A stretch of DNA of 64,000 bases from Cryptococcus deneoformans JEC21 (taxonomy: Eukaryota; Basidiomycota; Tremellomycetes; Tremellales; Cryptococcaceae), in NCBI RefSeq assembly GCF_000091045.1, contig NC_006687.1:1404001-1468000 (forward strand), written 5' to 3'. This document shows positions 2,319 to 64,000 of this stretch, piece after piece (position 1 is the stretch's first letter; every line of letters begins with the position of its first letter). A program made the position numbers and the translations under genes. The notes beneath the pieces were generated by a model that was not told the origin of the DNA, ran no database searches, and worked only from the letters and a program-made list of their open reading frames with translations.

Positions 2319-4622
2319 TTACGCGAGAACAGCCAGTGCTGAAAGCACGACTACAATCGCACTTCCCATTCCCATCCCACTCAACAGCGCAGGTGCTGCA
2401 CCAGATTCGCTTGATGACGAAGAGGAGGAGGAAGCAGAATCGACAGAGGTCGCTGTAGAGCTCGAGTCGGTCGCAGACGCAGAGGCAGAAGTGGTGGCGA
2501 TGGTGACGATGGTGCTAGCTGGGAGGACGGCGTTGTTCGTCGTGTTCTGGTCACCGAGTTGACCGTTGCCGACCATGATGAACTATTTCTCAAAGTTAAC
2601 GCTTTCCTCAAACAAAGAAGAAAGAGGGGAAACCCACCTCGCCGATAGAAGGAACACCCTTAACAACAACGAAGAACATGGCAGGTCCAGGTTGGAAGAG
2701 AGTGGGGCCTGGGTTACCGGGCAACTGAGAGACGTGAATAGTCGTGTTGCCAGTGTTCATATCAATAGTATAGGAGCTTTCCAACTCGAGCATCTTCTGA
2801 CCAAAGCCCATAGCGTGAGTGTTGAAACCGCCTCGGATGAGGACGACTTTGGTGTCCTTCGCTGTATCCTCATCGGTGCCAGACATGGTAAGGTTGAAAG
2901 AGTCGCCACCATAATACAAGTTGGTAGGCATACCGCTATAAGTAGGACGCTTTTCGTTGTAATACCAAGGGTACCACTTCTCAGAATCAGTACGACTTCG
3001 CCACTGATCGTTGGTGAAATCGGCGTTGGGGTTGGAACCGGCGATGAGAACGGAGGAGTCGGGAAGGAGGATGGCGGTGGAATGATACATTCGTTCATTG
3101 GCAGAGGCAGAAAGACCAGTTCGGTTCCATCGCGAGCCTTTGGGAGCAGAGTAATTGTACAGGGCGGGCATGTAGAGAGGGTCCTGACCGTAAGATTCTA
3201 TGACGAAAAGAATTAGCTCGAGTAATGAGGAAGAGAACGGATGACTTACGGCCAACACTGTACTGTTCGTTGCCATAACCAGCAGTTCCCATAGCAACAC
3301 CATTACCCATCCAGAAGGTTCCATCAGGCAAGATGACAAACTGTCCCATACTCCTACCCTCAAACATATAATCATCATCTTCGTACTGAGGGTTGTTGGT
3401 GTCGGGGCTGATCCTGACACATGTACCGTCAGCGGGGACAGCAGTGACGTTGTAACCGGCGCTACCATCATCACCCCATTGAGTAGTGTTCGAGCCACCA
3501 CAGAAGAGAAGAGTAACGGTGTAGTTGTTGGCAGGTGTAAGAGGGAGCATGACAGTGGCGGCGGAAGCAGGATATACTCGAGTGGCATAAGGCATGTCGG
3601 GCAAGTCGGTAGTTACCTTGGTAGTGTAATCGTAGAGGATGGTCTTGCGATACGCCTGCATGAACAGTTTACCTGAAGGCAACAACCAAACAAGGGGGTA
3701 GAGATTGACAGGAAGAGTGTCAGTAAGGAACTGCAGGTTGACGGGGTCCCCGTCACGAGGAGGGAAAAATTCGTAGGTGGGGTTATCTTGAGCGGCAGTG
3801 TTGACATAACCACCATTCTTGTCACCACCGATGACGATCAAACTTCCGTCCTCGAGAGTCTCGACCGTAGGGTACCAACGCTTTCCAGTCATTTGAAGCC
3901 AGCCGCCCGTGCCCTGGCTCTTGTCATAAGAGGTTTCGCCTTGGATGTACTCGCATGTTTCGTCGGTACAAGGGTTGATCATTCGGATGGCGCTTCCTCC
4001 ATCGGTATCGCTGTAAGCAGCAGCATCGGTAGAGGCGACACCACCTGTTGTGACGGCTGTGCCAAAAAAAAGCGTCAGCTATTTTACGGAACGGTGAGAA
4101 CACAGCACACTTACGTTGGTTACCACCGAAGATGACCCAAGTACCATTACCAAGAACATTACCACCAGCACAGAAAGTATTTGAGTACACATCGAGAGTT
4201 CGGTCTGAGGTGCAAGCTGTTAGCAACATATACACATGTATGAACGGTTCGCTACTCACATTCGTTCGTCTCAATGTCATACTCGGTGGCCCATGCGGGA
4301 TGGGTGCCGTACGCGCCGTTAATGGTGATAGGGTTGTTTTCTGCCTTGTCAATGACATAAACCTTCTTGTCATTACCCAAGAACATCTGACAGCTGTCAT
4401 GAGCATCTTCTCTGGCATCAGGTTTGATAACAGACTCACTTGCTGTGCACTGACACCAGTGTCGCCAACGCTTTCAAAACTCAGCGGTGTCGGAGCGTTT
4501 GATGAACCTCGCTTGTTGGCAGTATATCCGGGTGTCGCTCCATCTTGTGGTGAGGGAGAGGCGACAACGAGTGATAAGAATGGGAGGAGTGTAAGAAGGG
4601 TTACCATGTTTAGTGAAGCCAT
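2319..4622 (-). CDS. GPI-anchored glyoxal/galactose-oxidase-like copper radical oxidase
   Basis: An extracellular copper enzyme predicted to oxidise simple aldehydes or alcohols to acids or aldehydes with production of H2O2. The start at 4622 opens a signal peptide (MASLNMVTLLTLLPFLSLVV, then ASP). Six exons give roughly 680 residues: a glyoxal-oxidase-type beta-propeller followed by a C-terminal DUF1929-like domain. All expected copper/radical residues are visible by motif: the Cys in NTFCAGG (Cys of the Tyr-Cys crosslink), the Tyr in TRVYPAS, the Tyr-His pair in ERMYHST, and the C-terminal His in NTHAMGFG. The last exon (2581-2319) encodes a Ser/Thr/Ala-rich stalk and a hydrophobic tail (SAIVVVLSALAVLA-stop), the pattern of a GPI-attachment signal, so the enzyme is probably tethered to membrane or wall. 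Introns lie near 4445-4390, 4259-4211, 4115-4055, 3249-3197 and 2632-2582. The substrate is not deducible; no peroxidase lies next to it. Confidence 0.9.
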
Positions 4623-8343: not shown

Positions 8344-9320
8344 GCTACAATAGTTTCGTTGTCCTCGGTCGTTTGTATTCCATTGCTCTAGAAGCTCTGA
8401 AGTGGTTCGGTAGACTGGAGAGTTCGAATAGACTAAGCTGTTTGGGCTATGCATTTTATCTACTCTAAAGGCTACGCCTTTTATATCTTTCTCAGCTCTA
8501 CGAGCTGACTCAGCTTTCCCACACTTTCCTGTCTCCTCCACTCGTACCTCTCTCTTCCCTAACGCCTTCTTGCGCAGTCCTCCTTCTCTTCCTCTCGTCT
8601 CCTTCCTCTCCTCGGTCCTCCGAAACTACTTATCCACTGCTTATTGTTCTCTTCCTCTCCATCTTCCTTATTGTTCTCCTCGTTTCCTTACAGGTGCTCA
8701 TATCTTTGCTGGCTTAAAGCGATCAATTTCCTAGACTTGCTATGGCCTCGAAGCGACTTACTTTTTGCCCGCTTAAGAAAATTTCCGCAGCAGTATTGCT
8801 TCGTATTACCTCCCCAACCCGCTGAAACTCCTCCTCTTGACGCCTACACAGCTCATCATCCACCTCCAGATCCTCCTGTAGTTCGTCACTTCGGAACTGC
8901 CACTGCCCCAGCCTTCCGCACTCTTCACCAGCATCATCCAAGGAGCCTCCTTCACCATCCTCATCTCCTGACTGCTGCCTTACGTGGTTGACACCAATCT
9001 CTAAGCGTCAACCGACGCTGAGGTAGACTAGGTCCTGCCGGGCATGGTGCAAAGGAAGATGAGGAAGACGGTATGGCAACAGTCGGGATGTCACCACTTA
9101 GTTCCTTCCCTTTACCTGTACTTGCACAGCAGTAAGAAGTTTATAATCGACAGGTTCTTCTTCTCTATCCTCATGTACTTGAACGTTTGAGGAAGGCCGG
9201 TGAGGAGTCAGGTGTGAAAGGGGTGATATCGAGGGTGTATGGATGTTCGGCGTAATTTGAACTGGAATGTTGCGCAATGGAAGACATTGTGGAACTGGTA
9301 TTCCCTCAGCACCTTCGTAC
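8344..9320. other. Intergenic, nothing convincing
   Basis: Pyrimidine-rich tracts dominate 8500-8700 and produce spurious Ser/Leu/Phe-rich ORFs. No coding signal persists in one frame with plausible splice sites. Confidence 0.4.
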
Positions 9321-9329
9321 AAACAGTCT

Positions 9330-9714
9330 CAGAGAGCAGTGTACAAGATAGTGATGAGGAAAGACCAGAAAGCTACAAAGGAGAAAAATAGAGTAGGGTA
9401 TAGAACCTGAACGAAAAAGACCACGTAGTCATCTTTTAAACGAGTAGCTAGACGCCACAAAGTCTTCATAGCAGGCTCGTACAGTGTCAAAAGAAGGACT
9501 CGGGTTAATGACAATTTCATTGTCGTTTCCGCTTGTTCCGATCGAGGTGTTTCCGTTCAATTCGGTGGTATTATCTTCGGAGACGCCAGTTCTTACAGGG
9601 GCGGGTGGTCCATCATCCTTCTTGATCTCGGCTCATTGGAGCATCATAAGGAAAGGTGTAGCCGATTGGTTGAAGAATGACATCCGAGTTCGCTCGCGAA
9701 GAGCAGCGGCGTAG
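9330..9714 (-). CDS. Possible gene fragment with Thr/Asn-rich stretch and hydrophobic end
   Basis: Read on the minus strand, one frame gives a polar stretch (PVRTGVSEDNTTELNGNTS) running into SPSFDTVRACYEDFV. A second frame downstream gives LKDDYVVFFVQVLYPTLFF, a strongly hydrophobic segment that could be a membrane helix. Joining them needs a frame change that I could not tie to a clean intron. No family recognised; it could equally be a decayed gene. Confidence 0.25.
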
Positions 9715-52030: not shown

Positions 52031-52261
52031 ACCATTTTCAGGTGTGTCGTATTGGTATTCATAGTGTCAGAGGACCTTAAGCGTTGTAGTACTTCCATGT
52101 TATGCACAGGATAGGTTAGAGGACCGCTAGGCCGATAGAGAGACTCGATAGCTAATAGAGTGATGGCGGTATAGTACCGAGGGCTGACTTGCAACAAGTA
52201 ATCACGCTCACAATTATTATTTACATAAGCTAGTCTAGTCAGCGAAGGCCGCTCATGATTC

Positions 52262-53650
52262 GGGGGTTATAGAGGTTGCATTTTTCGTTGTTTAATTTAT
52301 TGGGTTGTCGTGTGGGTTGCCCGAATTAAAGAAACTACTTAAATAAACAACTTTTTAAAGAAAAGAAAAAATAATCCAACCTCCTCTTCCTCACAAGACC
52401 AGCGTCCTAGCCCTCGCCTTTACTAACTCGACACCAATCCGTTTCTCCATTTTCTCGAACCCCCCCACCGGCATCGCCTCCCTCCACTCCTTCCATTCGT
52501 CTGCTGTGCTCCTGCTCATCAGGCCACCAGTGGAAAGGATGATCGGTTTAAAGACCCCACCAGTGACTTTCGGAGCGTTCTTCGAGACGACCTGACCCAC
52601 CTTGTCGAGCCAGTTCACGCACCGGTCCAAGCAGAATTCGGCCAGCTTGCTGTTGGGGGTGCTTGGGGTGGCTGTGCTCCTCGCGTCTCGGTCCCCGAGG
52701 GAGTAAACCTTCAGGTCGTAGTCAGTGAAGGCCAGAGCGCTGGAACCTCTGACCCGAAGGTCGTTTCTCCTTTGTCCCGACAGCGTGTGGGGCTCAATCT
52801 CAACCGTGGCACCTTGGATTTGTTTGAGGTGTTGATAGATGACGCGGTTGATGGCATTGTGCCGGCGCTGGGTCCAGGGGTTGCGGGCGCGGCAAAGCTC
52901 GTCGTGACCCAAAGGTGAGTCCGACCCACAGAAGCGACAGACAGGTATCGAGGAGCCGACCAGGGTGCGGTCGTGGAGACCCGAGGCAATCTCGACGTTG
53001 GAAAGGCGCAGGGGCTGAAGGTAAGGGATGACTGATAACCAACTTCGGCCGAGTCTGGAGGCATTCTCGGTGAGCCGCTTGCGTTCAGTGTCGCCGAGAT
53101 TACGTAGAATGGCTTCCTGTTGCGATTCCCAGAGTTCTGCGCATCGAGTTCGTTGGGGGACCGGTGTTGGAGGTTCCTCTGGCGAAGAAAGGAGACCTAG
53201 GTTATCGAGGAGAGTGTCGGAGGCCTCGGCTGCCGAGCGGTAAGCAAGGGGGGCTACATCTTTGAAGGAAAGTAGACCTAGTCCGCCCAGTCGCGCTGGT
53301 AGCTTCGTCAACGATCTCCCTAGAGCCTCCTCTTCCGCCGTATCCTCCCGCTGCCTCATCCTCATCCTTTTCACCTCCTCCCATAGCATCGTGTCCAGCC
53401 TCTCCCATAGGTCTACAAGGTCGTCCGAGCGCAGACTTCTCTGCAGGTGTCGTAGATTTTGCTGAATGCAGAAACGTAATAGAAGGAGCGCGTGTTGATG
53501 TGGAAGATCCTTGAGCTTGCCCACCTTTGCCATTTCCTTCCGAATCCTGCCTTCCAGAAACTCCGCTCGCTTCTCCTTACCTCCTACCATCGTCCCTAGC
53601 ATCTTGAAGCCCTCCTGCCTGATCTCATCGAAGCTGATTAACTTGCATTA
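52262..53650 (-). mobile_element. LINE copy A, 5'-truncated
   Basis: A 1.39-kb 3' fragment of the same non-LTR element as copy B. It lines up with 53651-55036 at a constant offset of 1388 bases; I found one difference in reading both (A at 53204 against G at 54592), which is silent in the ORF. Its 3' end (GGGGGTTATAGAGG at 52262 on the plus strand) abuts unique DNA 230 bp downstream of the transporter stop, and its 5' truncation lies in the sequence CTTGCATT, fused to TAGGGG of copy B. Confidence 0.85.
52391..53602 (-). pseudogene. Truncated reverse transcriptase ORF of copy A
   Basis: An open frame of 403 codons identical in protein to the last 403 codons of the full copy, beginning inside the RT thumb region (MLGTMVGGKEKRAEFLEG) and including the zinc knuckle and endonuclease region. 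It lacks the catalytic RT core and the N-terminal fingers, and has no promoter of its own, so it is presumed non-functional. Confidence 0.8.
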
Positions 53651-56600
53651 GGGGTTATAGAGGTTGCATTTTTCGTTGTTTAATTTATTGGGTTGTCGTG
53701 TGGGTTGCCCGAATTAAAGAAACTACTTAAATAAACAACTTTTTAAAGAAAAGAAAAAATAATCCAACCTCCTCTTCCTCACAAGACCAGCGTCCTAGCC
53801 CTCGCCTTTACTAACTCGACACCAATCCGTTTCTCCATTTTCTCGAACCCCCCCACCGGCATCGCCTCCCTCCACTCCTTCCATTCGTCTGCTGTGCTCC
53901 TGCTCATCAGGCCACCAGTGGAAAGGATGATCGGTTTAAAGACCCCACCAGTGACTTTCGGAGCGTTCTTCGAGACGACCTGACCCACCTTGTCGAGCCA
54001 GTTCACGCACCGGTCCAAGCAGAATTCGGCCAGCTTGCTGTTGGGGGTGCTTGGGGTGGCTGTGCTCCTCGCGTCTCGGTCCCCGAGGGAGTAAACCTTC
54101 AGGTCGTAGTCAGTGAAGGCCAGAGCGCTGGAACCTCTGACCCGAAGGTCGTTTCTCCTTTGTCCCGACAGCGTGTGGGGCTCAATCTCAACCGTGGCAC
54201 CTTGGATTTGTTTGAGGTGTTGATAGATGACGCGGTTGATGGCATTGTGCCGGCGCTGGGTCCAGGGGTTGCGGGCGCGGCAAAGCTCGTCGTGACCCAA
54301 AGGTGAGTCCGACCCACAGAAGCGACAGACAGGTATCGAGGAGCCGACCAGGGTGCGGTCGTGGAGACCCGAGGCAATCTCGACGTTGGAAAGGCGCAGG
54401 GGCTGAAGGTAAGGGATGACTGATAACCAACTTCGGCCGAGTCTGGAGGCATTCTCGGTGAGCCGCTTGCGTTCAGTGTCGCCGAGATTACGTAGAATGG
54501 CTTCCTGTTGCGATTCCCAGAGTTCTGCGCATCGAGTTCGTTGGGGGACCGGTGTTGGAGGTTCCTCTGGCGAAGAAAGGAGACCTAGGTTGTCGAGGAG
54601 AGTGTCGGAGGCCTCGGCTGCCGAGCGGTAAGCAAGGGGGGCTACATCTTTGAAGGAAAGTAGACCTAGTCCGCCCAGTCGCGCTGGTAGCTTCGTCAAC
54701 GATCTCCCTAGAGCCTCCTCTTCCGCCGTATCCTCCCGCTGCCTCATCCTCATCCTTTTCACCTCCTCCCATAGCATCGTGTCCAGCCTCTCCCATAGGT
54801 CTACAAGGTCGTCCGAGCGCAGACTTCTCTGCAGGTGTCGTAGATTTTGCTGAATGCAGAAACGTAATAGAAGGAGCGCGTGTTGATGTGGAAGATCCTT
54901 GAGCTTGCCCACCTTTGCCATTTCCTTCCGAATCCTGCCTTCCAGAAACTCCGCTCGCTTCTCCTTACCTCCTACCATCGTCCCTAGCATCTTGAAGCCC
55001 TCCTGCCTGATCTCATCGAAGCTGATTAACTTGCATTTCTTTTCATTGAGCTTGATGATGTGCTGCTTGTCGGCGAGGAATTGGGTAGTTTTGCTGAGGA
55101 CTTGCGAGTCGTTTGAGAAGAGGTAGATGTCATCGAGATAAGCGAGCGCTTGCGTAGATGGACCTAGCGATTGGCTGAGGGCATTCAAGGTTGGTCGGAG
55201 GGTGATCGAGAAGAAGAGAGGGCCGAAAGGGTCACCCTGTCGAACGCCTTGAGAGGATTGAAGGATTTTGTCGCCACACACAAGGTCGGACGAGTCGCCA
55301 TAGGCCCATTTGCAAGTCCTCCAAAGCGTCGGCGCATGGGTCTTGACCGCCGCTGCCATCTCGGCCCTATCTACACGGTTGAAAGCGTTAGAAGCATCGA
55401 GCGAGGCTAAAAAGGAGAACTCAGCGCCGGCAGAACCCTCCAAGACTCTCTCTGTCAGCCTCACGATCGGCTCTACACCACCGATTGACTTGACCCCAAG
55501 CTGGAATGGGAGGAGGAAGTCGGGTTGGAAATGCGAGATGATGAGAGCTTTCGCACACAGCCGATAGATAAGTTCACCAACAGCGATAGGTCGGATAGAG
55601 CCATCGTCCTTCTTCAAGGGGATGAGACGAGAAGTGCGGAGCATAGAGCGACCAGGGGCGGTGTTGTTGGCGATGGCGGCGCAGAGGAGTTGGAGAAACT
55701 GCTTGACTGGCTCCCTCTTGGCAGCCGTCTTCAAGAGAGGGACCGACCAGCCACTAACGCCGGGTGCTGTGTCGGGCTTGAAGGAGTCGAGGGCCTTTTG
55801 GATGGTGTCGATGTCGGGAGCTTTACCAGGAGTTGGACCAACTGCATTGCCGAATGGACAAGACGGCCCTTTGGGGTGCTTGGCGATGAGCTGGTCGATG
55901 ACCCCTTGATCAAGTTCGGCTACTGAAGCATCCTCCTCCAACACTCTCTCTGCCGCACCTAGGCGCCCATTCTCAACGAGTTTGATGACTTGTTTGGTGG
56001 TGTCTGGACGAATATTGCTGGGAGGACGACGAGCGGGTGGCTGTTCTGGCCAGGGGATATGCGGGAACTGCTTAAGGAAGGTTGACGGCCTGAGGGGCTG
56101 TTCTGGAGCGAGCGCCTGGGTGAGGCCGACCTTTGGAAGGGCGAGAAATGCCAGCAGTGTAGAGTCCGAGGGTTGTGCAATGTAGGCAAGAGCACAACGC
56201 TCAGCGGCGTCCATGAAGTCGGTAACTAGGTTGTTGGGCAGAGGCTTGCTCCGAACAGGCAGGTGCGCAAGGTACAGGAATCTTTCGTTAGCACACTCTT
56301 GGGACGGAAGTAAGGAAGGCAACGTCCCAGGGGAAGGCCCCAGCGTTGAGCTCACCGCGTTCTCGAGCCCTGCTGGGGCAGTTGGGTTGGTATGACTACT
56401 CTCCTCCTCCCCACGATGCTCCTCCTCCGGCGCTGCCATGTTTAGCTCCCTAACTCGCGCGCCACTTTCCTCGGCAGATCTCGGAACGGATTCCGGAGCT
56501 CTCCGGGTCCCTTCCAGCGTGTCAACAGTCTCGGCAACAACCTGAGCGACCTCCTGCACCTCCTCGGCTTCAGACAGTGGTTCGAGACCGGCAACAACTT

Positions 56601-57034
56601 CAGCAGGCTGAGGGGGGCTTGGGCGATCTGGGGAAGGCGAAAGAACGATGGGTGAAGCTGCAGTATTTGAGGGAGGGCGGCGAGGTGTGTTTGTTGAGTT
56701 TCCCACGCGATTTCGGCGGATTCGAGGGGCAGTGAGACCACAATACCGGCTCTGGTGACGAGATAAACCAGTACCAGCCGAGCAGGGGGTGCCGCAGCGA
56801 GGGCAAGCGACTAGGGAAGAGCCACGGAGGTCGGAGGGGACGAAGAAATGGGTGGAATGTTGTTTATTGAGATGATCTTTGAGGTCCCTATAGTCGGCAG
56901 AGCATAGGTTGCACCGACCAGGATCTCCACGGGCGTTTTTGGCCCTCTGCAGGGACATGTTGGTGGTGTTTAAGGTGCAGAGAACGTTGATTAGGGGGTT
57001 GTTATGTGTTATGGGGTATTAAGAGGGTTATAGA
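53651..57034 (-). mobile_element. Cnl1: LINE copy B, full-length Cnl1-like non-LTR retrotransposon
   Basis: About 3.4 kb from a 5' UTR containing telomere-like tracts (56991-57034: TTAGGGGG, TTATGGGG, GGGTTATAGA twice) through one long ORF to a 128-nt 3' UTR (53778-53651). The 3' UTR has no poly(A) tail; the element simply ends in CCCC (sense strand). The joint to copy A is CCCCTAA. No long terminal repeats. The name follows the Cryptococcus LINE known for telomere-associated insertion; assignment is from architecture and target, not from alignment. Confidence 0.82.
53779..56958 (-). CDS. Site-specific LINE polyprotein: zinc finger, reverse transcriptase, restriction-like endonuclease
   Basis: A single uninterrupted ORF of 1059 codons, start MSLQRAKNARGDPGRCNLCS. 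N-terminal DNA-binding fingers: CNLCSADYRDLKDHLNKQH (C2H2) and CPRCGTPCSAGTGLSRHQ (C2HH), residues ~16-75. A disordered linker (~75-330) follows. RT core residues ~400-660: IPLKKDDGSIRPIAVGELIY, SLDASNAFNRVDRAEM, GVRQGDPFGPLFFSITL and the catalytic box ALAYLDDIYLFSND. Thumb ~660-800. C-terminal zinc knuckle CRFCGSDSPLGHDELC (C-x2-C-x7-H-x4-C) and restriction-like endonuclease elements RRHNAINRVIYQHL, RRNDLRVRGSSALAFTDYDL with K next. This one-ORF plan (fingers, RT, REL-endo) is that of early-branching site-specific LINEs such as the R2/CRE groups. It has no apurinic endonuclease and no RNase H. All catalytic motifs are intact, so copy B may be active. Confidence 0.92.
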   Translation of the reverse strand: MSLQRAKNARGDPGRCNLCSADYRDLKDHLNKQHSTHFFVPSDLRGSSLVACPRCGTPCSAGTGLSRHQSRYCGLTAPRIRRNRVGNSTNTPRRPPSNTAASPIVLSPSPDRPSPPQPAEVVAGLEPLSEAEEVQEVAQVVAETVDTLEGTRRAPESVPRSAEESGARVRELNMAAPEEEHRGEEESSHTNPTAPAGLENAVSSTLGPSPGTLPSLLPSQECANERFLYLAHLPVRSKPLPNNLVTDFMDAAERCALAYIAQPSDSTLLAFLALPKVGLTQALAPEQPLRPSTFLKQFPHIPWPEQPPARRPPSNIRPDTTKQVIKLVENGRLGAAERVLEEDASVAELDQGVIDQLIAKHPKGPSCPFGNAVGPTPGKAPDIDTIQKALDSFKPDTAPGVSGWSVPLLKTAAKREPVKQFLQLLCAAIANNTAPGRSMLRTSRLIPLKKDDGSIRPIAVGELIYRLCAKALIISHFQPDFLLPFQLGVKSIGGVEPIVRLTERVLEGSAGAEFSFLASLDASNAFNRVDRAEMAAAVKTHAPTLWRTCKWAYGDSSDLVCGDKILQSSQGVRQGDPFGPLFFSITLRPTLNALSQSLGPSTQALAYLDDIYLFSNDSQVLSKTTQFLADKQHIIKLNEKKCKLISFDEIRQEGFKMLGTMVGGKEKRAEFLEGRIRKEMAKVGKLKDLPHQHALLLLRFCIQQNLRHLQRSLRSDDLVDLWERLDTMLWEEVKRMRMRQREDTAEEEALGRSLTKLPARLGGLGLLSFKDVAPLAYRSAAEASDTLLDNLGLLSSPEEPPTPVPQRTRCAELWESQQEAILRNLGDTERKRLTENASRLGRSWLSVIPYLQPLRLSNVEIASGLHDRTLVGSSIPVCRFCGSDSPLGHDELCRARNPWTQRRHNAINRVIYQHLKQIQGATVEIEPHTLSGQRRNDLRVRGSSALAFTDYDLKVYSLGDRDARSTATPSTPNSKLAEFCLDRCVNWLDKVGQVVSKNAPKVTGGVFKPIILSTGGLMSRSTADEWKEWREAMPVGGFEKMEKRIGVELVKARARTLVL

Positions 57035-57386
57035 GGGTTATAGAGGTTGCATTTTTCGTTGTTTAATTTATTGGGTTGTCGTGTGGGTTGCCCGAATTAA
57101 AGAAACTACTTAAATAAACAACTTTTTAAAGAAAAGAAAAAATAATCCAACCTCCTCTTCCTCACAAGACCAGCGTCCTAGCCCTCGCCTTTACTAACTC
57201 GACACCAATCCGTTTCTCCATTTTCTCGAACCCCCCCACCGGCATCGCCTCCCTCCACTCCTTCCATTCGTCTGCTGTGCTCCTGCTCATCAGGCCACCA
57301 GTGGAAAGGATGATCGGTTTAAAGACCCCACCAGTGACTTTCGGAGCGTTCTTCGAGACGACCTGACCCACCTTGTCGAGCCAGTT
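57035..57386 (-). mobile_element. LINE copy C, 0.35-kb 3' fragment
   Basis: Contains the same 3' UTR and the last 69 codons of the ORF with sequence identical to copies A and B as far as read. Its 5' truncation lies at CCAGTT, fused to TAGGGGG of copy D. Confidence 0.8.
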
Positions 57387-57985
57387 AGGGGGTTATAGAG
57401 GTTGCATTTTTCGTTGTTTAATTTATTGGGTTGTCGTGTGGGTTGCCCGAATTAAAGAAACTACTTAAATAAACAACTTTTTAAAGAAAAGAAAAAATAA
57501 TCCAACCTCCTCTTCCTCACAAGACCAGCGTCCTCGCTTTTGCTTTGACCAACTCGACACCAATTCGCTTCTCCATCCTCTCAAACGCACCCGCCGGCAT
57601 CGCCTCCCTCCCAGTCCTGCCACTCATCGGCTGTGCTCCTGCTCACCAGGCCACCAGTGGATAAGATGATCGGTTTGAAAACCCCACCAGTGACCTTTGG
57701 AGCGTTCTTCGAGACGACCTGGCCCACCTTGTCGAGCCAGTTCACGCACCGATCCAGGCAGAAGTCGGCCAGCTTGCTGTTGGGGGAGCTGGGGGGGACA
57801 GTGCTTCGAGCATCGCGGTCGCCGAGGGCGTAAACCTTCAGGTCGTAGTCAGCGAAGGCTAAAGCGCTAGGTCCTCTGACCCGAAGGTCGTTTCTCCTTT
57901 GTCCTGACAGCGTGTGAGGCTCGATCTCGACAGTGGCACCTTGAATTTGCTTGAGGTGCTGGAAGATGACACGGTTGATGGCGTT
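57387..57985 (-). mobile_element. LINE copy D, diverged and frameshifted 5'-truncated copy
   Basis: The 3' UTR and the first bases of the coding end (to about 57534) match the other copies, after which the coding part differs at many sites (for example GCTTTTGCTTTGACCAACTC against CCTCGCCTTTACTAACTC). One extra base near 57610 shifts the frame, so the reading ends DEWQDWEGGDAGGCV. The 5' truncation is about 57985, where it meets unique DNA. Part of an inactive older copy, possibly mosaic. Confidence 0.75.
57581..57985 (-). pseudogene. Endonuclease-region remnant of copy D
   Basis: Starts abruptly at INRVIFQHLKQIQGATVE and continues through RRNDLRVRGPSALAFADYDL; the frameshift near 57610 abolishes the normal C-terminus. 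Confidence 0.7.
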
Positions 57986-57999
57986 GCCGCAGGGAATGG

Positions 58000-58476
58000 C
58001 CAACCTGCGTTGGAAGTGCCGGTCCCATCCCCATCTCCCCCAGCACTTCCAGAGACGACAGTGGTGAGTGCCTTTTTCCTCGGATGCTAATTCAAATTCT
58101 GATCAGTGTTGAAAGTGCAATTCGGTTTTCGACTTCATCCGCAGGAAGTACCCTGGCCCCCAAGAAATGCAGGAACTGCTGCGAAGTTTCAAGGAAAGGG
58201 GGATTCAAATCCCTTGTCCTGTGGGCGGTCCTGGGGAAGGACACGAGTTACGGAATGCTGGAGGGAAGGCAAGGTTCCGGTTGCGATGCAAGTTCCGGAA
58301 GTGTAAAACTTCAATGGAGCTTGTACCATCACCGTACTGGATAAAAACCTTGATTGAGGAAGGCCGTCTGTGCCGCTCACCATGGAGCAATTCTACGCAT
58401 TCGGTCTTTCTGATCGCCCAGGCTATGAAGCACTGCTCTTCATTGTGGGCCTCTCTTTCAAGAGCCGACAATAGAC
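58000..58476 (+). CDS. Possible remnant of a zinc-binding-type gene cut by the LINE
   Basis: One frame runs KCNSVFDFIRRKYPGPQEMQ, ELLRSFKERGIQIPCPVGG and KARFRLRCKFRKCKTSMELV, with paired Cys spaced as in zinc ribbons, then SPYWIKTLIEEG; another frame further on reads MEQFYAFGLSDRPGYEALLF to a stop at 58476. A GTGAGT donor at 58060 and a TGATCAG acceptor at about 58105 suggest an intron. The 5' end lies exactly where copy D ends. It could be a decayed gene or a mobile-element transposase fragment; function unknown. Confidence 0.35.
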
Positions 58477-58777
58477 GCTTGGGTTCAAGTGTAACCGGAC
58501 CGAGTCCGATGGACGCGACGGAGAGAGAAAATATATACAATACCGAGTAGATAGACTTTGTTACCAACATGCCATTTATTCTCGCTTGAGTCTCAATCTT
58601 TTTTGACAAAGACTTATCCTCTCCTTACCCAGCCACCTACTAAGGAGTCATCAACGTATAGAAAATACGATCAAGAAGCACGATATACGATACATCTCTA
58701 TACACCCTTATGCAAGATGGAAGCACTGATTTTCCCCTTTTTCTAACACTACTTCACTTCAGCTCATCGTCTCTGTT
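58477..58777. other. Intergenic, convergent 3' region
   Basis: About 300 bp; nothing beyond a likely 3' UTR for the minus-strand gene. Confidence 0.5.
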
Positions 58778-61400
58778 CTACCCAAGCGCTACCCCACTCA
58801 CATCCACTTCCCTTCCTTGTTCCTTCTCCTTCATCTTCGTCTCACTCTTACTCCCCGCCGCCGCCACAGCCTCATCGGCCCGCGCTTCGATTAACGCACG
58901 AGTTTCGGCAGCCTCAATAGCTTGAGCTTCAGCAGCCCTATCTTTCGCTCTGCGCTTTCCCGCGAGGACCACCTCCTGCCTATGCTGGATTTCTTCTTTC
59001 AGGCTCGCTAGTTGGTCGAGTTTGGTTTGCAGGGATTCGAGATGGGTTCGGATGTCAATGTTAATGTTGCTGTTTGGGGTGAGGGAGGGTGTAGAAGTGG
59101 TTATGTCGTTTAGCTGCCCTTCTGACGTGTCCACAGAGCTCTCATCCCCAGTGGCGCTCGCGTTCACAACGTTCGCGGCGTTGGCTCCGCTCGTCCTCAA
59201 CATTTCCAAAACCCTAATCTCCTCTTCTAACCGTCTCTCAAGTGTTTCAATCTCCTCCTTCAACACCACTGTTTTACCGATAGCTTTCTTGTTACGGCCA
59301 GCTGAAGAGAGGACAATTCGGAGGGCGGTGTTGAACCAAAGCGGGTTGGGGTGGATTCTCGGTTGAGTGATTTTGAGGGTAGGGCGAGAAAAAGTGGAAT
59401 CGAGAGTAGAAGAAAAGAAAGTGGTGACGATTTGGCTTAACCATCGGACTTGCTCCAACGCTGCAAACCTCAATCCTGCTCTGCACACGTACAACCCCAT
59501 CTCTCTCACATTTGGTCGTCCTCGTCCGCCGTGGAAAACAGCCTCAGGGTCAGGGTGACGATGGAGGTAGATGTAATGAAGCATGGTTTTGATCATGTAG
59601 TCGGGTGGGATTGAGTTGGCATCGTCAAAGTCGGCCAAGTTGACGCACGCGCGCGCGGGTTCCGAGGAGGATGAGGAGGAGGAGGGAAGAAGAGAGAGAG
59701 GCATGGGGATAGATGGTAAGTATGTTGAAAAGGAACGACGATAAGATGGTTCGTGCTCCACCATTTCTGCTGGTTCTGTTGATTCTGCTGATTCTGCTGA
59801 TTCTGCTAATATCGCCGTGTTTGCAGATGTCGAGGCAGAGATGTCTGAAGCATCTGTGTCGGAATGACGCACCCGACCTAACCAATCCCTCTCAGCTCTT
59901 GCAGCCCGTTCTTTGGCCATCATACTGCTCAACGTCGGGATCTCCTCTTCTATTACTTCTTCCGGGGTCAACTTTGCCGTCGTCGCTTCAGCCTCCATCA
60001 TGTTTTCTTGGAACTCTCCGACCACAGAGGCAGAGGTAGCCATCATAGTGGAAGTGGGGGTGGTGGCTGACGCGGGGGCGGGAGAGGGAACCGAAAGATC
60101 GGGATACATCTTCTCAAAAGCTGTAATCATCCCCCACAGATTTCCTTCCCGGCCCATCATCTCAATCACCGCCAATTTAACTTGCGTCGGTAACTCCACT
60201 TTCAATCCCTCCCAGCCCAGCCCCAATCCACCCACATCCCTCCTCTTAATCCCGTAGCCTCCTCCCAAAATCACCCTCGTAAGATCTTCAAACCCTTCTC
60301 TCACTTTTTGATCCTGGACAGCAGCAGGCGAAGAAGTGTATCGTCCAGCGTCGAGGAGGACCAAAGCCGTTTGCTCGCCGGCTGGGACACCTTGGGATTG
60401 CATACCGCTGATGAGACGTTTAAGGGAAGAGATAGCAGAAAGAATCTCGCCTTGGGCTGTGGGAGCACGGTAAATGTTGAGCGAGAGCCAGCGGACGACG
60501 GAGCGGAGGGAGTAGTCGTAAAGGGTCCGCCATTCGGAGGGAGAAACCGTCGGGAGTGATGAGGAAGCGGCATCGCTAGAAGAAGAGGAAAGGGAAGGGG
60601 GAAAACGGGATTTGAGCTCGAGAAGAATCGATTCGCATCCCGTTTTGTCGCCTAATATTGAAAGTTTTCGAAGACCACCCGTGAGCACTCCAGGGGTATG
60701 CAACACTTCTTTCTTCTTTTCTCCTTCTTGCCTCGCACTATTTCGCCTGGGGGCAAGGATATCCCCAGCAACAACCCTCAACCTCATCTCCCACTCCGCA
60801 GCCAGCTTTCTAACTTTTCTTCGATGTTCTCTCACGACACTCGGGTTACGGGTGCGTGGATTGCCAATAAGGATTTTGATATCCGAGTATCGAGGGACGA
60901 CTTGGCGGAATGTTTGATGGAGGACAGAGAGAGGAAAGGTCCGGCGGTATGCTTGTGGAAAGCTTGAGTAGAGGAGCCAGACAGCTTCAGCATGTTGGAT
61001 GCTCAACATCTCGCCAGTGGTACTGGCGCTGATTGATTCAGGCTTTTCACCAGAATAAGGTTGAAGGAGTTTTTGAAGTTGACCAAGGGAGGCAGCAGGA
61101 ATGGAGGAGGTAGGCGTTTGGGACCATGAGCCGCGTAAAGGGCTGGTAGGGAACGGGAGTTGGGAAATGGGAGAAGGAGGGATGGCGTTGATAGCTGATG
61201 GGAGTGGAAAGGGGTGGTAGCTGTCACTCTTTTTGTTCCTGTTGCTCCTCCTTGCAGATAGGTGCAGGTTGGAAAAAGAGCCTCTGTATGACGAGTCAGC
61301 GGCATTCGATTAGACATTGGAACTTTGAAGGGACGTACGTGTAAATATGGTTTTTTAACCTGACATTATTCAGTTTTCGGAGGGTATGGGGTACGCGCAT
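58778..61400 (-). CDS. Probable mitochondrial protein, helical repeats, unknown function
   Basis: Exon 1 (61400-61339) encodes MRVPHTLRKLNNVRLKNHIY, an Arg/Lys-rich amphipathic start without acidic residues, which suits a mitochondrial presequence. A 54-nt intron leads to GSFSNLHLSARRSNRNKKSD, a Ser/Pro linker and then a long exon of about 770 codons: MLSIQHAEAVWLLYSSFPQA, YDYSLRSVVRWLSLNIYRAP, KLAVIEMMGREGNLWGMITA with FEKMYP, DYMIKTMLHYIYLHRHPDPE, LRFAALEQVRWLSQIVTTFF and a coiled coil near the end (VVLKEEIETLERRLEEEIRV). The helix-pair spacing resembles pentatricopeptide-like proteins, as in fungal mitochondrial expression factors, but no motif is decisive. The central third is Ser/Ala/Glu-rich and disordered. 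About 865 residues. Confidence 0.7.
59764..59815. repeat. GATTCTGCT 9-bp tandem repeat
   Basis: Four to five units in the plus strand encode, on the minus strand, a run of Ala-Glu-Ser (AESAESAESTEPAE) within the mitochondrial-type protein. The unit is a multiple of three, so copy number may vary in frame. Confidence 0.75.
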
Positions 61401-61671
61401 GGCAGGATGTGAAGGTAGTTGCCGGCCTGACTGAGATGGGCAGCTGTGGTGGCCTTTTTTTGGTAGTTTTTTCTGTGGTGGATAGAGGGAATGGATGTTA
61501 TGGCAAGTGAAGAGTGAATGCGGAAAAGACGGTTTTCGGCCGTCGTCGTGGTTTATATATGATGTTACGTAATTGGCCTCCACCCGCCAGAGTATTTTCT
61601 CAATCCCAACAACTACACTTTCTCTTGCACATCCAAAAATACATTGTAATCATATATCCGTATTCATCGAG
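61401..61671. promoter_or_regulatory. Bidirectional promoter (mitochondrial-type gene / TMA16)
   Basis: About 270 bp between divergent starts with pyrimidine-rich tracts before the TMA16 ATG. Confidence 0.45.
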
Positions 61672-63008
61672 ATGCCCAACAACAGGAAGATTACAAAAAA
61701 GACAATCAAGGGAAAGGAAGGCCTCCATCCGGGATCACGAAAGGCTGCCCAGCTTACGCGGGTCCAGCTGAGGGTCGAGAAGCTCAAGGGAAATAACAAG
61801 GCAAGAAAAGATCATGTTTCTGCGAAGGGTACGTTTCGGGATGAACTTTGTGATGCGTCGACATATTGATTGATTTGTATCTTTGTCATCTACTGTCCCT
61901 TCCATTTACATTCCTATTCCTCGCGCGATATACGTGTACTTCTTTCCTCTTGCTCACTTTGTTCGCCCTGTTTCAACCATCTTCATCTGATCGCTCGCTC
62001 TCGCACAGTCCAGCGGCCACTCTTCTTCATCCACTCCCTCTCCTCCCCAAACCCGCTTACCCTCCCTTCCCTCAAAGCACTCATAACGGAAGTGTATCTC
62101 AAGCGACATGATCCCCGCATTGAAGAGCTTACACGAGAACGGAGGCCAGGGAGACCAAAGCCGAAGGAGTTGCTGGATTTGGAGGAGGTCAAAAAAAGGG
62201 AAACTGGAGAGTATGAGACAGGAATGGGTGGGTTTTCTTTTCCTTTTGCCATGTTTCCTTATTTGGGTTTTGGATTTCCTTCGATTTTTTGCGTCTTTTT
62301 CGAACATTCCCTGCGTCGACTGGTTTCCTCGTCTGGTGTATCATATCGCATCGCAGGCTTGGATGTTTTGCATTTTCGGATGCAGTCCAGCTTTGTAAGA
62401 GATTGTCATGCCCATAACTTAGTTAAGGTCTTATTCTGTTTCCGGCTTTATCCTCTCTTCTTGTGAGAGATACGAGGTATCTACGAGGGTCGCGTCGTCT
62501 GCGTAGGATTCTCTAGGTAATGAGCGGAGCTCTGTGGTATCATAAGTATGGCTTGAAGAAAATTCGGGTTTGGCGATGACTCTTCGCCCTTTTGCGTCTA
62601 CGTCTTTGTCTTTAATGTCGTTCCTTGCAATCCACTCGACTCCCAGTCCGCTTTCCAATTTTTCCAATCTTCTCCTCTTTGTTTCCACCATCCCCTTTTT
62701 CACCTTTTTCCGGACCACCTGCTAACTCTCTCCCAATCGCAGAGGTCCCAGACCTAACCCATCCCCCAACGACCCTTCTCATCCACTCATGGCTCAGTTC
62801 TCCCAACCCGCCTTCTATCGACCATTCACACATTGACCTCCTTCGACATATACGTGTATCCCCTCATGGGGAGGTATTGCTTACAAAGGAAGGGAGAACA
62901 GAAGAGATGGGTTTGGGGAATTGGAAGGGAGAGGGAGAGGGAGATGATTGGACTACTTTTTTGGAAGGGGTGAGCACGGAGAAACAGGGGCAAGAGATGG
63001 AGGAGTAA
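61672..63008 (+). CDS. TMA16: Tma16-like ribosome biogenesis protein
   Basis: Protein associated with pre-60S particles. Exon 1: MPNNRKITKKTIKGKEGLHP then GSRKAAQLTRVQLRVEKLKG, the signature N-terminus of the family, ending at AAG G before GTACGT. Exon 2 resumes in phase 1 (VQRPLFFIHSL), then LPSLKALITEVYLKRHDPRI and EELTRERRPGRPKPKELLDL, ending ETGM before GTGGGT at about 62227. Exon 3 starts after CGCAG near 62739 (EVPDLTHPPTTLLIHSW), and the protein ends in an acidic tail (STEKQGQEMEE) with stop at 63008. About 180 residues. The second intron is about 510 nt, roughly ten times the usual size here. Confidence 0.9.
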
Positions 63009-63385
63009 AGATGCTAAGGAGGAGTAGGTGTTGGGGGGTTGTTGAGTTATAGATGGTTATTTTTGAACATTATAACCCTCATCTTCGCTTATGTATGTAT
63101 TATACGTTCGTCTCCATGTCCATCGTTGTCAAATGGTCATGATCAGTTCCGCAATAAAAGAACCTCATCCTGCGGCGATTGCAGTATAAACCGTCTTCAT
63201 AGATTCATGTTCATAGCTCCATAGCTTCATGGTTTCAAGGTTTCATGATTTGATAATTTACTCGGAAACAATCTGCAGACCCGACCAGTAACCCCCACTC
63301 ACCCACCCATCCAATGTATTCTCCCTGGACAGACCGACCATGCTTCATTCCCCTGCCCACCGCTCTTCCCATCAACCCAACCGCT
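63009..63385. other. Convergent intergenic region
   Basis: About 380 bp between TMA16 and the small Cys-rich gene; AT-rich, with the short direct repeat TTCATAG/TTCATGG near 63196-63250. No gene. Confidence 0.45.
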
Positions 63386-63718
63386 TTACTTCTCCGCATC
63401 CGCGCCAGCCCTCCCGACCTTCAGCTGCACCCCCTCAGAAGGTCCGTTTTTCTTGACTTCGTACATCCCCGGAACGCTAGCAGGCTCATGAGGACAGTCG
63501 CACCGATCGGAAGGGGGAATGGAGGCAAGGGCTTGTTCGACGTGTTTGCCTTTTTTCAGTATGGGGTTTTTGTCAGCTCACGCCGTGAGTTGGTTGGTAA
63601 GTGGGGGTGGAGAGGGACGTGAGAGGGGAGAGGGAACGAAGAGGGAAAAAGAAGAAGACCCACCGCAACCCCACCAAGTGGGTTTACCATCGTTCGGGCA
63701 GGTGACTTGTTTACACAT
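63386..63718 (-). CDS. Small Cys-rich protein, 72 residues, two exons
   Basis: Exon 1 is 63718-63664 and exon 2 is 63549-63386 (219 nt in total, 73 codons with stop), joined across a 114-nt intron with GTGGGT donor and AAAAAAG acceptor; the split codon restores Gly. Protein: MCKQVTCPNDGKPTWWGCG then KHVEQALASIPPSDRCDCPH and on to stop. Five Cys plus His residues fit a metal-binding or redox role. Similar short proteins with a CK-x-VTC, PTW-x-GCG-x-H and RC-x-C pattern are, to my knowledge, widespread in fungi and uncharacterised; this comes from memory and needs a search. The C-terminus is Lys/Gly-rich and variable. The unspliced ORF hides this gene. Confidence 0.75.
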
Positions 63719-64000
63719 CTTTCTCCTACTTTTCCTTAAGAGGGTGTGTGAGGGAAACCAATTAATGATAAGTGCAGAGGATGGCAGCCGAACGAATGAA
63801 AAAAAAAAAAGAACAATGAATAGACGAAACGAGCGAGATGGGAATGACTTCTGACGTTGAGTCTCCACCAACATAATTAAGTTATTTCTACTACTGCGTT
63901 ATCTTCACATCATGTCCCATGACGTCGTAAACTTCGATCTGCATAGAACCAAATGATTATGTAATCGATTTTGGCTGAGTTGAGGCAAAGTTCTATTGAA
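63719..64000. other. Upstream region of the small Cys-rich gene, window end
   Basis: About 280 bp with an A-run at 63799-63811; likely promoter or 5' UTR sequence. Nothing else seen. Confidence 0.4.

Follow-up and report, generated by a model that had tools for sequence, protein, structure and literature searches.

A Cnl1 array at the probable proximal seam of a transferred chromosome end in Cryptococcus deneoformans JEC21

Introduction

Why does a head-to-tail row of four LINE copies, partly joined at telomere-like TTAGGGG units, lie about 46 kb away from the right telomere of chromosome 5 in Cryptococcus deneoformans JEC21? The row was found in a stretch of 64,000 nucleotides of this chromosome (NC_006687.1, positions 1,404,001 to 1,468,000; here called the window and numbered from its first letter). 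The original prediction explained it by repeated targeting of a single telomere-like joint, perhaps at an old chromosome-end fusion.

The right end of chromosome 5 in JEC21 is described as carrying the identity island, about 40 kb of subtelomeric DNA from C. neoformans (Kavanaugh et al., 2006). As cited from that work, partial copies of the LINE Cnl1 were already reported at the borders of the island. In print, its identity to H99 is put at about 98.5%. Published excerpts also state that a 14-kb segment of it is duplicated in JEC21 and that hybridisation data fit its presence or absence among strains. One review assigns the island to chromosome 6 of var. neoformans, other passages to chromosome 5. 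For Cnl1 itself, the relevant passages of a recent study (PLoS Genet 2026, PMC12810828) call the exact target specificity undefined and leave undecided whether telomere repeats, the element's own sequence or both are the target.

Results

BLAST of the genome with copy C as reference bore out that window positions 52262-57986 (C5:1456262-1461986) hold four copies of one LINE, on the same strand and head to tail. Their sense order had been given as D, C, B, A. This is the order on the plus strand; the elements lie on the minus strand and their sense order is A, B, C, D, with copy D closest to the centromere.

57389..57986, minus strand: Cnl1 copy A, 89.6% identical to copy C, 5'-truncated with its start near reference position 2799
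57035..57386, minus strand: Cnl1 copy B, 5'-truncated, 100% identical to copy C over 352 bp
53651..57020, minus strand: Cnl1 copy C, 3,370 bp, reference for the copy comparisons
53779..57018, minus strand: reading frame of copy C, open over 1,079 codons (stop to stop), with reverse transcriptase and C-terminal CCHC and RHN motifs
52263..53649, minus strand: Cnl1 copy D, 5'-truncated, 99.93% identical to copy C with one difference in 1,387 bp

We assign the element to Cnl1, a telomere-associated LINE, by its length, single open frame, reverse transcriptase and arrays at chromosome ends. The published excerpts on Cnl1 (PMC12810828) describe, in the same genus, an element of about 3.5 kb full length (about 3.4 kb here) with one open frame containing a reverse transcriptase, with 5' truncations and with subtelomeric arrays bounded by TAACCCCC-type repeats; the open frame is printed as 2.5 kb and measures 3.2 kb here. 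Among the fetched loci, the 5' 450 bp are covered by copy C only.

The frame of copy C contains a reverse transcriptase (RVT_1, E 5e-18). Copies C and D encode the endonuclease motif C-X2-C-X7-H-X3-C-X9-RHN (CRFCGSDSPLGHDELCRARNPWTQRRHN), which matches the restriction-like endonuclease pattern C-X1-3-C-X7-8-H-X3-4-C-X9-10-RHD/N as printed in the excerpt of PMC12857005. Of the 12 best homologues tested, 9 have this pattern as well. Of the downstream endonuclease residues, judged by eye, E is present, RND replaces R/KPD, D follows 12 residues on and one spacing is one residue short. A structure search with the copy C protein gave weak matches to R2 structures, and the nearest matches to the Cnl1 protein that carry an organism name are C. 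neoformans hypothetical proteins (94-95% identical). The predicted protein shows a LINE with reverse transcriptase and part of a CRE/R2-type endonuclease motif.

The array was thought to sit between ordinary unique genes. This holds for the left flank, which carries a sugar-transporter gene and whose longest matches, apart from itself and Cnl1, measure 181 and 163 bp (chromosome 10, 76-77%), but not for the right flank, which repeats the left end of chromosome 5 exactly.

The joints of the array read as follows:

57385..57391, plus strand: TTAGGGG of joint A/B, CCCCCTAA in sense
57021..57034, minus strand: joint B/C, the Cnl1 3' end reiterated (TCTATAACCC twice), then the 5' end of copy C
53648..53654, plus strand: TTAGGGG of joint C/D, CCCCTAA in sense
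52257..52266, plus strand: junction between the 3' end of copy D and the flank, GATTCGGGGG; in sense CCCCC/GAATC, one base off CCCCCTAA

The claim that every internal joint carries CCCC(C)TAA is right for two of the three. Joints A/B and C/D contain this telomere C-strand unit, whereas joint B/C (ACCCTCTATAACCCTCTTAATACCCC) is without CCCCTAA. The 3' joint of copy D has no TAA. The 4-base microhomologies proposed at the truncation points (CATT, AGTT) are too long; the overlap of the telomere unit with the truncated 5' end is 3 nt at A/B (AAC) and 2 nt at C/D (AA). Neither the element nor the present flank supplies the extra T of CCCC(C)T at these two joints. The array contains no interstitial telomere tract of several units. 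TTAGGGG occurs 6 times in the 64-kb window (6.67 expected), so it is the position of the units and not their number that carries the signal.

The Cnl1 3' end reads TATAACCC(CC), which is close to one telomere unit (TAACCCCC). Listing the flanks of the Cnl1 copies, a check proposed with the original prediction, showed that in the fetched loci 18 of 31 3' ends run into CCCC(C)TAA, compared with 11 among 526 C-runs used as control (P about 2e-18); without the two duplicated joints the count is 17 of 29. The other 13 lack C-run plus TAA, two of them having a C-run with TA. These counts exclude the 3' end of the copy at C14:759100, which lies only partly inside its fetched locus, the 65% relative at C12:348218, which is outside the fetched loci, and, apart from that of C3, the 400-bp right-end loci L031-L038, in which BLAST found no element. 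CCCC(C)TAA is present at 8 of 12 distinct head-to-tail joints, with joint C8_2/C8_1 (the same as B/E on C5-left) and the duplicated joint A/B each counted once. At 13 chromosome ends lie 28 of the 38 BLAST rows, including the four of the window (under C5 right) and three of a 68% relative family; in 28 of 28 the 5' end faces the telomere. Cnl1 arrays at chromosome ends adjoin TAACCCCC repeats, and many copies abut either a telomere repeat or the 3' end of another copy.

The left ends of chromosomes 3 and 4 have 1,698 bp in common at 99.88%. On C3-left a telomere repeat is followed by TAACGTGC, and on C4-left a Cnl1 3' end (CTATAACCCC) is followed by TAACGTGC in the same way. This pair, without and with Cnl1, would place the Cnl1 3' end at the first telomere unit; C3-left could, instead of being a true empty site, be an end which was stripped of Cnl1 copies and then healed. 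The pair and the genome-wide junctions support repeated targeting of a telomere-like joint. An empty site for the array itself, sought with a 180-bp repeat that ends beside copy D, was not found: the homology of this repeat to C10:748201-748381 stops at 52259, and a second match on chromosome 10 stops at 52240.

Copy A is the most diverged of the four copies and its 5' end abuts island sequence. It falls into two parts:

57535..57986, minus strand: diverged part of copy A, 62 differences from copy C in 452 columns (14%)
57389..57534, minus strand: last 146 bp of copy A, 0/146 differences from copy C, the putative JEC21-type side of a crossover

The divergence change point inside copy A was matched in 0 of 2000 permutations. 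At 9 species-fixed residues, the outer part agrees with the C. neoformans proteins in 6 and with JEC21 in 3, the JEC21 set leaving out C7R_1 and C5L_A; with the divergent JEC21 copy C7R_1 counted, which shares position 42, 5 of 8 are C. neoformans-like. The three C. neoformans proteins share a single locus-tag prefix, and two of them do not differ from each other in most of the stretch, so they amount nearly to one witness. The position of copy A in a protein tree was unsupported, with no starred branch, and we therefore use the residue counts only. In other copies, differences in the outer stretch and then in the 3' end are 41/451 and 2/145 (C7R_1), 30/451 and 5/145 (C5L_E), and 10/451 and 0/146 (C14R). 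As the 3' untranslated end is less diverged in several copies, part of the change in copy A could be due to constraint or gene conversion. Judged from these sequences, copy A is apparently a hybrid, its outer part partly C. neoformans-like and its inner end ordinary JEC21 Cnl1.

Copies B and D differ from copy C at 1 of 1,739 sites, which has a P of 1e-10 at the published 1.5% divergence of the island. Given this near-identity, B and D probably arrived later than the introgression, at the telomere-like 3' end of an older copy. The youthful appearance of B-D could also be an effect of gene conversion.

The position of the array fits the island, with about 46 kb to the chromosome end compared with about 40 kb in print and 16.1 kb duplicated compared with 14 kb. 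At C4-right, an 86% relative of part of the island ends at the telomere, as expected for a native remnant. The duplicated part is:

57187..64000, on to C5:1477318: block of 16,132 bp, 100% identical to C5-left (C5:37-16168, inverted)

It includes a second copy A (C5:15369-15966) and a second joint A/B with identical bases. Its inner seam lies inside copy B: as far as 57187 the sequence agrees with C5-left at 100%, and within 57035-57186 this agreement is lost; on C5-left, copy B ends like the chromosome 8 copies. This seam marks a second, very recent exchange. A reading of B(3')-C-D as the resident array and A-B(5') as the arrival was dropped once the left arm had proved to be the chimaera. 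The direction of copying was not taken from copy B, which fits both ways. It is decided as right to left by the outer end and by a relative on chromosome 14. The left-arm copy ends abruptly at C5:37, where telomere repeat is joined, and the right-arm copy continues; the chromosome-14 relative crosses the matching point (query bases 173-1397, breakpoint 719) as C5-right does, so that C5-right has the older order. We regard the reverse, with the left arm as source, as hardly credible.

Discussion

We consider it rather probable that a transferred chromosome end has its proximal seam in this array, and that the array grew afterwards through the preference of Cnl1 for telomere-like ends. Cnl1 would insert by target-primed reverse transcription, with the 3' end of the G-strand (GGGG-OH) pairing with CCCC at the RNA end. 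Each copy would bring a TAACCCC end and so re-create the landing site, and for this reason Cnl1 arrays would grow head to tail. Building on the published work, a C. neoformans chromosome end may have been joined here some 2 million years ago when Cnl1 copies recombined, with copy A as the hybrid at the seam. Copies B, C and D would have been added later at the interstitial site, every one at the 3' end of the copy before it, as their divergence suggests. Later still, the 16.1 kb outward of copy B would have been copied to the left arm by recombination inside Cnl1; the telomere that caps the left-arm copy would be new, and break-induced copying may have produced this structure. The idea of an old chromosome-end fusion holds in part: the locus agrees with the proximal edge of the island and not with a bare telomere-telomere fusion.

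The exchange would be older than most of the array, because copy A is diverged and apparently hybrid and B-D are young. We favour an insertion order from A first to D last, towards the centromere, which differs from growth at a chromosome end and makes copy D the presumed youngest. Distal growth at a telomere is disfavoured because the outermost copy A is the most diverged. The favoured order gives no simple account of the extra T at joints A/B and C/D.

It is also conceivable, though unlikely, that the array was built at the real chromosome 5 telomere before the island was added at its outermost copy, and that B-D were homogenised by gene conversion. Cnl1 rows at chromosome ends share one polarity, and CCCC(C)TAA at two joints would be natural in a telomere tract. 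The array at 252 kb on chromosome 8 adjoins a sequence with matches over 800 bp both near that chromosome's own right end and at seven ends elsewhere in the genome, so an array inside a chromosome can be the sign of a former end; a telomere-telomere fusion is also described for JEC21 in published excerpts. However, the flank beside copy D is not a subtelomere family, the 3' joint of copy D is without TAA, and B and D show the single difference from C noted above.

Very unlikely is an origin without transfer, by four independent insertions at one interstitial TTAGGGG seed with copy A merely old and divergent. The 5' truncation points of A, B and D do differ and show separate insertions, and the protein tree lends no support to setting copy A apart from the JEC21 copies; but the right flank fits the published island and exactly copies the left arm, the change point in copy A is sharp, and TTAGGGG seeds are at chance frequency in the window. 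A wrong joining of near-identical copies or of the 16-kb duplication is more improbable still. Copies C and D and both arm segments, nearly or fully identical, would be hard for an older assembly, but joint A/B is present twice in the genome with identical bases, albeit within the duplicated block, and the published excerpts contain both the 14-kb duplication and the agreement of hybridisation with island presence or absence.

In Drosophila, HeT-A and TART likewise form head-to-tail LINE arrays at chromosome ends. They replace telomerase repeats, whereas the Cryptococcus ends examined mostly carry telomere repeats. In HeT-A arrays, members act as promoters for the next member. The extra ten bases before the 5'-complete copy C (TCTATAACCC), which match the Cnl1 3' end, might be a 5' tag of a transcript started inside the 3' end of the upstream neighbour, so that arrays would promote their next member. 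This is a doubtful reading, and a reiterated 3' tail of copy B explains the same bases at joint B/C. If it were true, head-to-tail growth would be required for expression and would be more than a mere result of targeting.

MoTeR of Magnaporthe oryzae is also a telomere-inserted LINE with tandem copies joined by telomere-like units, some joints being a single unit (Rahnama et al., 2020, PMC7367193). Where its joints break, the telomere is healed, the array changes and other telomeres are invaded. The frequently breaking MoTeR joints are long telomere tracts and the arrays lie at telomeres, whereas the JEC21 array is interstitial. FoTeR of Fusarium oxysporum is a further telomere-associated fungal LINE with REL endonuclease, grouped in the excerpt of PMC12857005 with MoTeR1, Cnl1, SLACS, CRE and CZAR; its open frame (about 1,150-1,184 aa) is larger than the 1,059 aa here, and it is described as having tandem repeats at its 5' end and as being linked to telomere helicases. 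Compared with Cnl1 in the passages of PMC12810828, the JEC21 array lies inside the chromosome, at a species-transfer boundary, and contains an apparent hybrid copy.

Cnl1 and the island were already known; base-level seams and a chronology are the addition. The locus agrees with the island as cited from Kavanaugh et al. (2006) in its place at the right end of chromosome 5, a size of about 40 kb, partial Cnl1 copies at the border and a duplicated part. It differs from that account in that copies A and B are here named as the places of the two seams and that the array's later growth is ordered in time against the transfer. Since the Cnl1 3' end itself closely resembles a telomere unit, the junctions suggest that telomere repeats and Cnl1's own sequence are one target, a directly testable rule. 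The locus yields base-level candidate seams of an interspecies transfer and of later arm-to-arm copying, both inside retrotransposon copies and both in a much used reference genome.

Structure of the Cnl1 array

Four copies of one LINE lie on the same strand of the window. BLAST with copy C and reading of the joints confirmed the single orientation given in the original prediction, but its sense order D, C, B, A had to be reversed: the elements lie on the minus strand and the sense order is A, B, C, D.

Cnl1 copies of the array (window positions; the reference comprises copy C and 25 bases from its 5' joint)
57986-57389, minus strand, Cnl1 copy A, 5'-truncated at 2799 of the reference
57386-57035, minus strand, Cnl1 copy B, 5'-truncated at 3043 of the reference
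57020-53651, minus strand, Cnl1 copy C, whole element as far as known here
53649-52263, minus strand, Cnl1 copy D, 5'-truncated at 2009 of the reference

The truncation points of A, B and D differ, so these copies are separate insertions. The open frame of copy C encodes a reverse transcriptase (RVT_1, E 5e-18) and carries the CCHC-RHN motif of restriction-like endonucleases. R2 retrotransposon structures match this frame weakly, over the RVT_1 stretch. Its nearest relatives from named organisms, among the best 7,994 candidates, are hypothetical C. neoformans proteins with 94-95% identity. By its size, arrays and flanks, the element is taken to be Cnl1.

CCCC(C)TAA had been proposed for every internal joint. 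In sense orientation it is present at the A/B joint (CCCCCTAA) and at the C/D joint (CCCCTAA), but the B/C joint reads ACCCTCTATAACCCTCTTAATACC and contains no telomere-like unit; here TCTATAACCC, which resembles the Cnl1 3' end, might, with low probability, be a 5' tag of the full-length copy. At its 3' joint, copy D passes from CCCCC into GAATC. TTAGGGG occurs six times in the window against 6.67 expected, which is not above chance, and its significance therefore lies in its position. A repeat of about 180 bp (window 52081-52259) ends two bases from the copy D 3' joint and has relatives at C10:748201-748381 and C10:802476-802638 (76-77%).

3' junctions of Cnl1 across the genome

The genome (14 contigs, 19,051,922 bases), of which the window is C5:1404001-1468000, contains at least 36 matches to the element. 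All were compared apart from a 65% relative at C12:348218, with C14:759100 partly covered. Copy C as BLAST query against the fetched loci gave 38 rows. At 13 chromosome ends we counted 28 of these, including the four of the window under the right end of chromosome 5 and three of a 68% relative family, and in all 28 the 5' end of the element points towards the telomere. The other 10 are interstitial, with both strands represented.

The genome-wide link to telomere-like units considered in the original prediction was found in part. Among 31 element 3' ends, located by exact anchor within 291,265 bases, 18 are followed by CCCC or CCCCC and then TAA, compared with 11 of 526 control AAC(3+) runs in the same loci (P 2e-18); with two duplicated joints removed, the count is 17/29. 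The remaining 13 of the 31 lack this sequence; two of these carry just TA. CCCC(C)TAA is present in 8 of the 12 distinct head-to-tail joints and absent from 4. Telomere-to-telomere assemblies in the literature contain 16-39 full-length copies. CACCCCT was seen in target duplications of new Cnl1 insertions in a study that leaves the specificity open (PMC12810828).

Flanks of the array and the identity island

On the left, the array borders a sugar-transporter gene. The original prediction placed the array between ordinary unique genes, which does not hold on the right: window 57900-64000 is 100% identical, in inverted orientation, to C5:9355-15455 on the left arm of the same chromosome. The array is indeed not at a visible telomere. 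The distance to the right end of chromosome 5 is about 46 kb, and the array is therefore taken as the proximal border of the identity island.

The accessible literature on Cnl1, telomere LINEs and the island comprises PMC12810828, PMC12857005, PMC2374700, PMC7846113, PMC3861523, PMC6895784, PMC2677675 and PMC7367193. According to papers that cite Kavanaugh 2006, JEC21 chromosome 5 carries at its right end a 40-kb island which is 98.5% identical to C. neoformans H99 and was transferred about 2 million years ago. Its borders carry partial Cnl1 copies, a 14-kb part of it is duplicated in JEC21, and it is absent from NIH430 and NIH433. One review places it on chromosome 6, not 5. Kavanaugh 2006, Fraser 2005, Goodwin and Poulter 2001, Priest 2022 and Starnes 2012 are known to us through citing papers. 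Seams inside copies A and B are not mentioned in the accessible text of the literature surveyed, for which the searches were not worded for seams and which did not include Kavanaugh 2006.

A relative of window 58762-60485, 86% identical, ends at the right telomere of chromosome 4 and is probably a remnant of the native allele; the island relative there covers C4:1780557-1783013 (86%, 77% in one part) and stops at the telomere. The outer, unduplicated part of the island (C5:1477319-1507550) measures 30.2 kb, near the 29-kb stretch which hybridisation found divergent in NIH433 and which, in the accessible literature, is reported without the inner 16 kb. The island also contains an 843-codon open frame (window 58778-61309, minus strand) with a weak, sub-threshold Pfam match to CENP-Q (E 0.0027).

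The right arm (C5:1477318-1461035) equals the left arm (C5:37-16321) at 99.957%. The differences are confined to the final 153 bases of copy B, and the 16,132 bp ahead of them are identical. The first 36 bases of the left arm are telomere repeat, and the duplicated block follows them directly. The right arm runs on past this junction point, and a chromosome-14 relative (82%) spans it unbroken (query bases 173-1397, break at 719); the right arm order is therefore older. Judged from these alignments, the left arm carries a truncated, telomere-capped copy of the right-arm block. The tail of left-arm B shows 0 differences to the Cnl1 copy C8_2 across the last three 60-column blocks, and the joint that follows is the one found in the chromosome 8 array. 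Since both match chromosome 8 copies, left-arm B is the recombinant one. Many copies share the first 180 columns of copy B unchanged, and these columns are uninformative on origin.

Copy A as a candidate hybrid

Copy A shows 62 differences to copy C in the outer 452 columns and 0 in the last 146, a change point not equalled in strength by any of 2,000 permutations. Among the control copies, C7R_1, C5L_E and C14R are likewise less diverged in the last stretch, so that constraint accounts for part of this change; C10R_2, with 13/333 and then 7/146, does not follow this pattern. Comparison of three C. neoformans proteins, which come under a single locus-tag prefix and amount to little more than one witness, with 13 JEC21 copies, leaving out the divergent C7R_1, gives nine residues fixed between the two sets. 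Copy A agrees with C. neoformans at 6 of these and with JEC21 at 3. C7R_1 has one of the six C. neoformans-type residues, and counting it gives 5/8. In a tree built from this short stretch, copy A has no supported position. We infer that copy A is a hybrid formed when the island was joined.

Order of insertion

Copies B and D together show a single difference from C in 1,739 sites, where about 1.5% divergence is expected if they predate the transfer (P 1e-10). Hence they either arose after the transfer or were homogenised. If the chromosome end was already 46 kb away at that time, the new copies would have landed on an older copy, at its telomere-like 3' end, and not on a telomere. Landing on the 3' ends of older copies would give the insertion order A, B, C, D, progressing towards the centromere. 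This order leaves an extra T at two joints unexplained, which a telomere tract would account for. For this reason we retain, as a rather improbable alternative, that the array was built at a real telomere before the island arrived and that B to D were homogenised. However, the window array has no subtelomeric flank of the kind seen at the chromosome 8 array.

The latter lies at 252-257 kb. The sequence next to it (C8:250001-252190) recurs, in matches of >800 bp, towards the right end of its own chromosome and at seven ends on other chromosomes. The array keeps CCCCCTAACCCCCTAA at its inner edge. With this sequence and a subtelomere-like neighbour, the chromosome 8 array looks like a former chromosome end. 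A JEC21 rearrangement that involved chromosomes 8 and 12, with telomere fusion and duplication, is described in the accessible literature. Three stretches of the window (8969-9087, 9206-9287 and 9453-9643) match parts of C8:257944-260000, immediately outside the chromosome 8 array, at 94-95% identity, and may represent a dispersed piece or another exchange.

Chromosome ends with and without Cnl1

The left ends of chromosomes 3 and 4 have 1,698 bp in common (L011:17-1714 and L012:761-2458, 99.88% identical). A further family of Cnl1-like elements, with about 68% identity to Cnl1, is present at three chromosome ends: at these two (L011:26-1114, L012:770-1858) and close to where the identity island ends on its outer side (C5:1503957-1505523). 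On chromosome 3, telomere repeats are followed by TAACGTGC. On chromosome 4, where the junction contains two additional Cnl1 copies, the Cnl1 3' end CTATAACCCC precedes TAACGTGC. The chromosome 3 end may either be a true empty site or have lost its Cnl1 copies and been healed. This pair is the cleanest single case in which a Cnl1 end replaces the first telomere unit.
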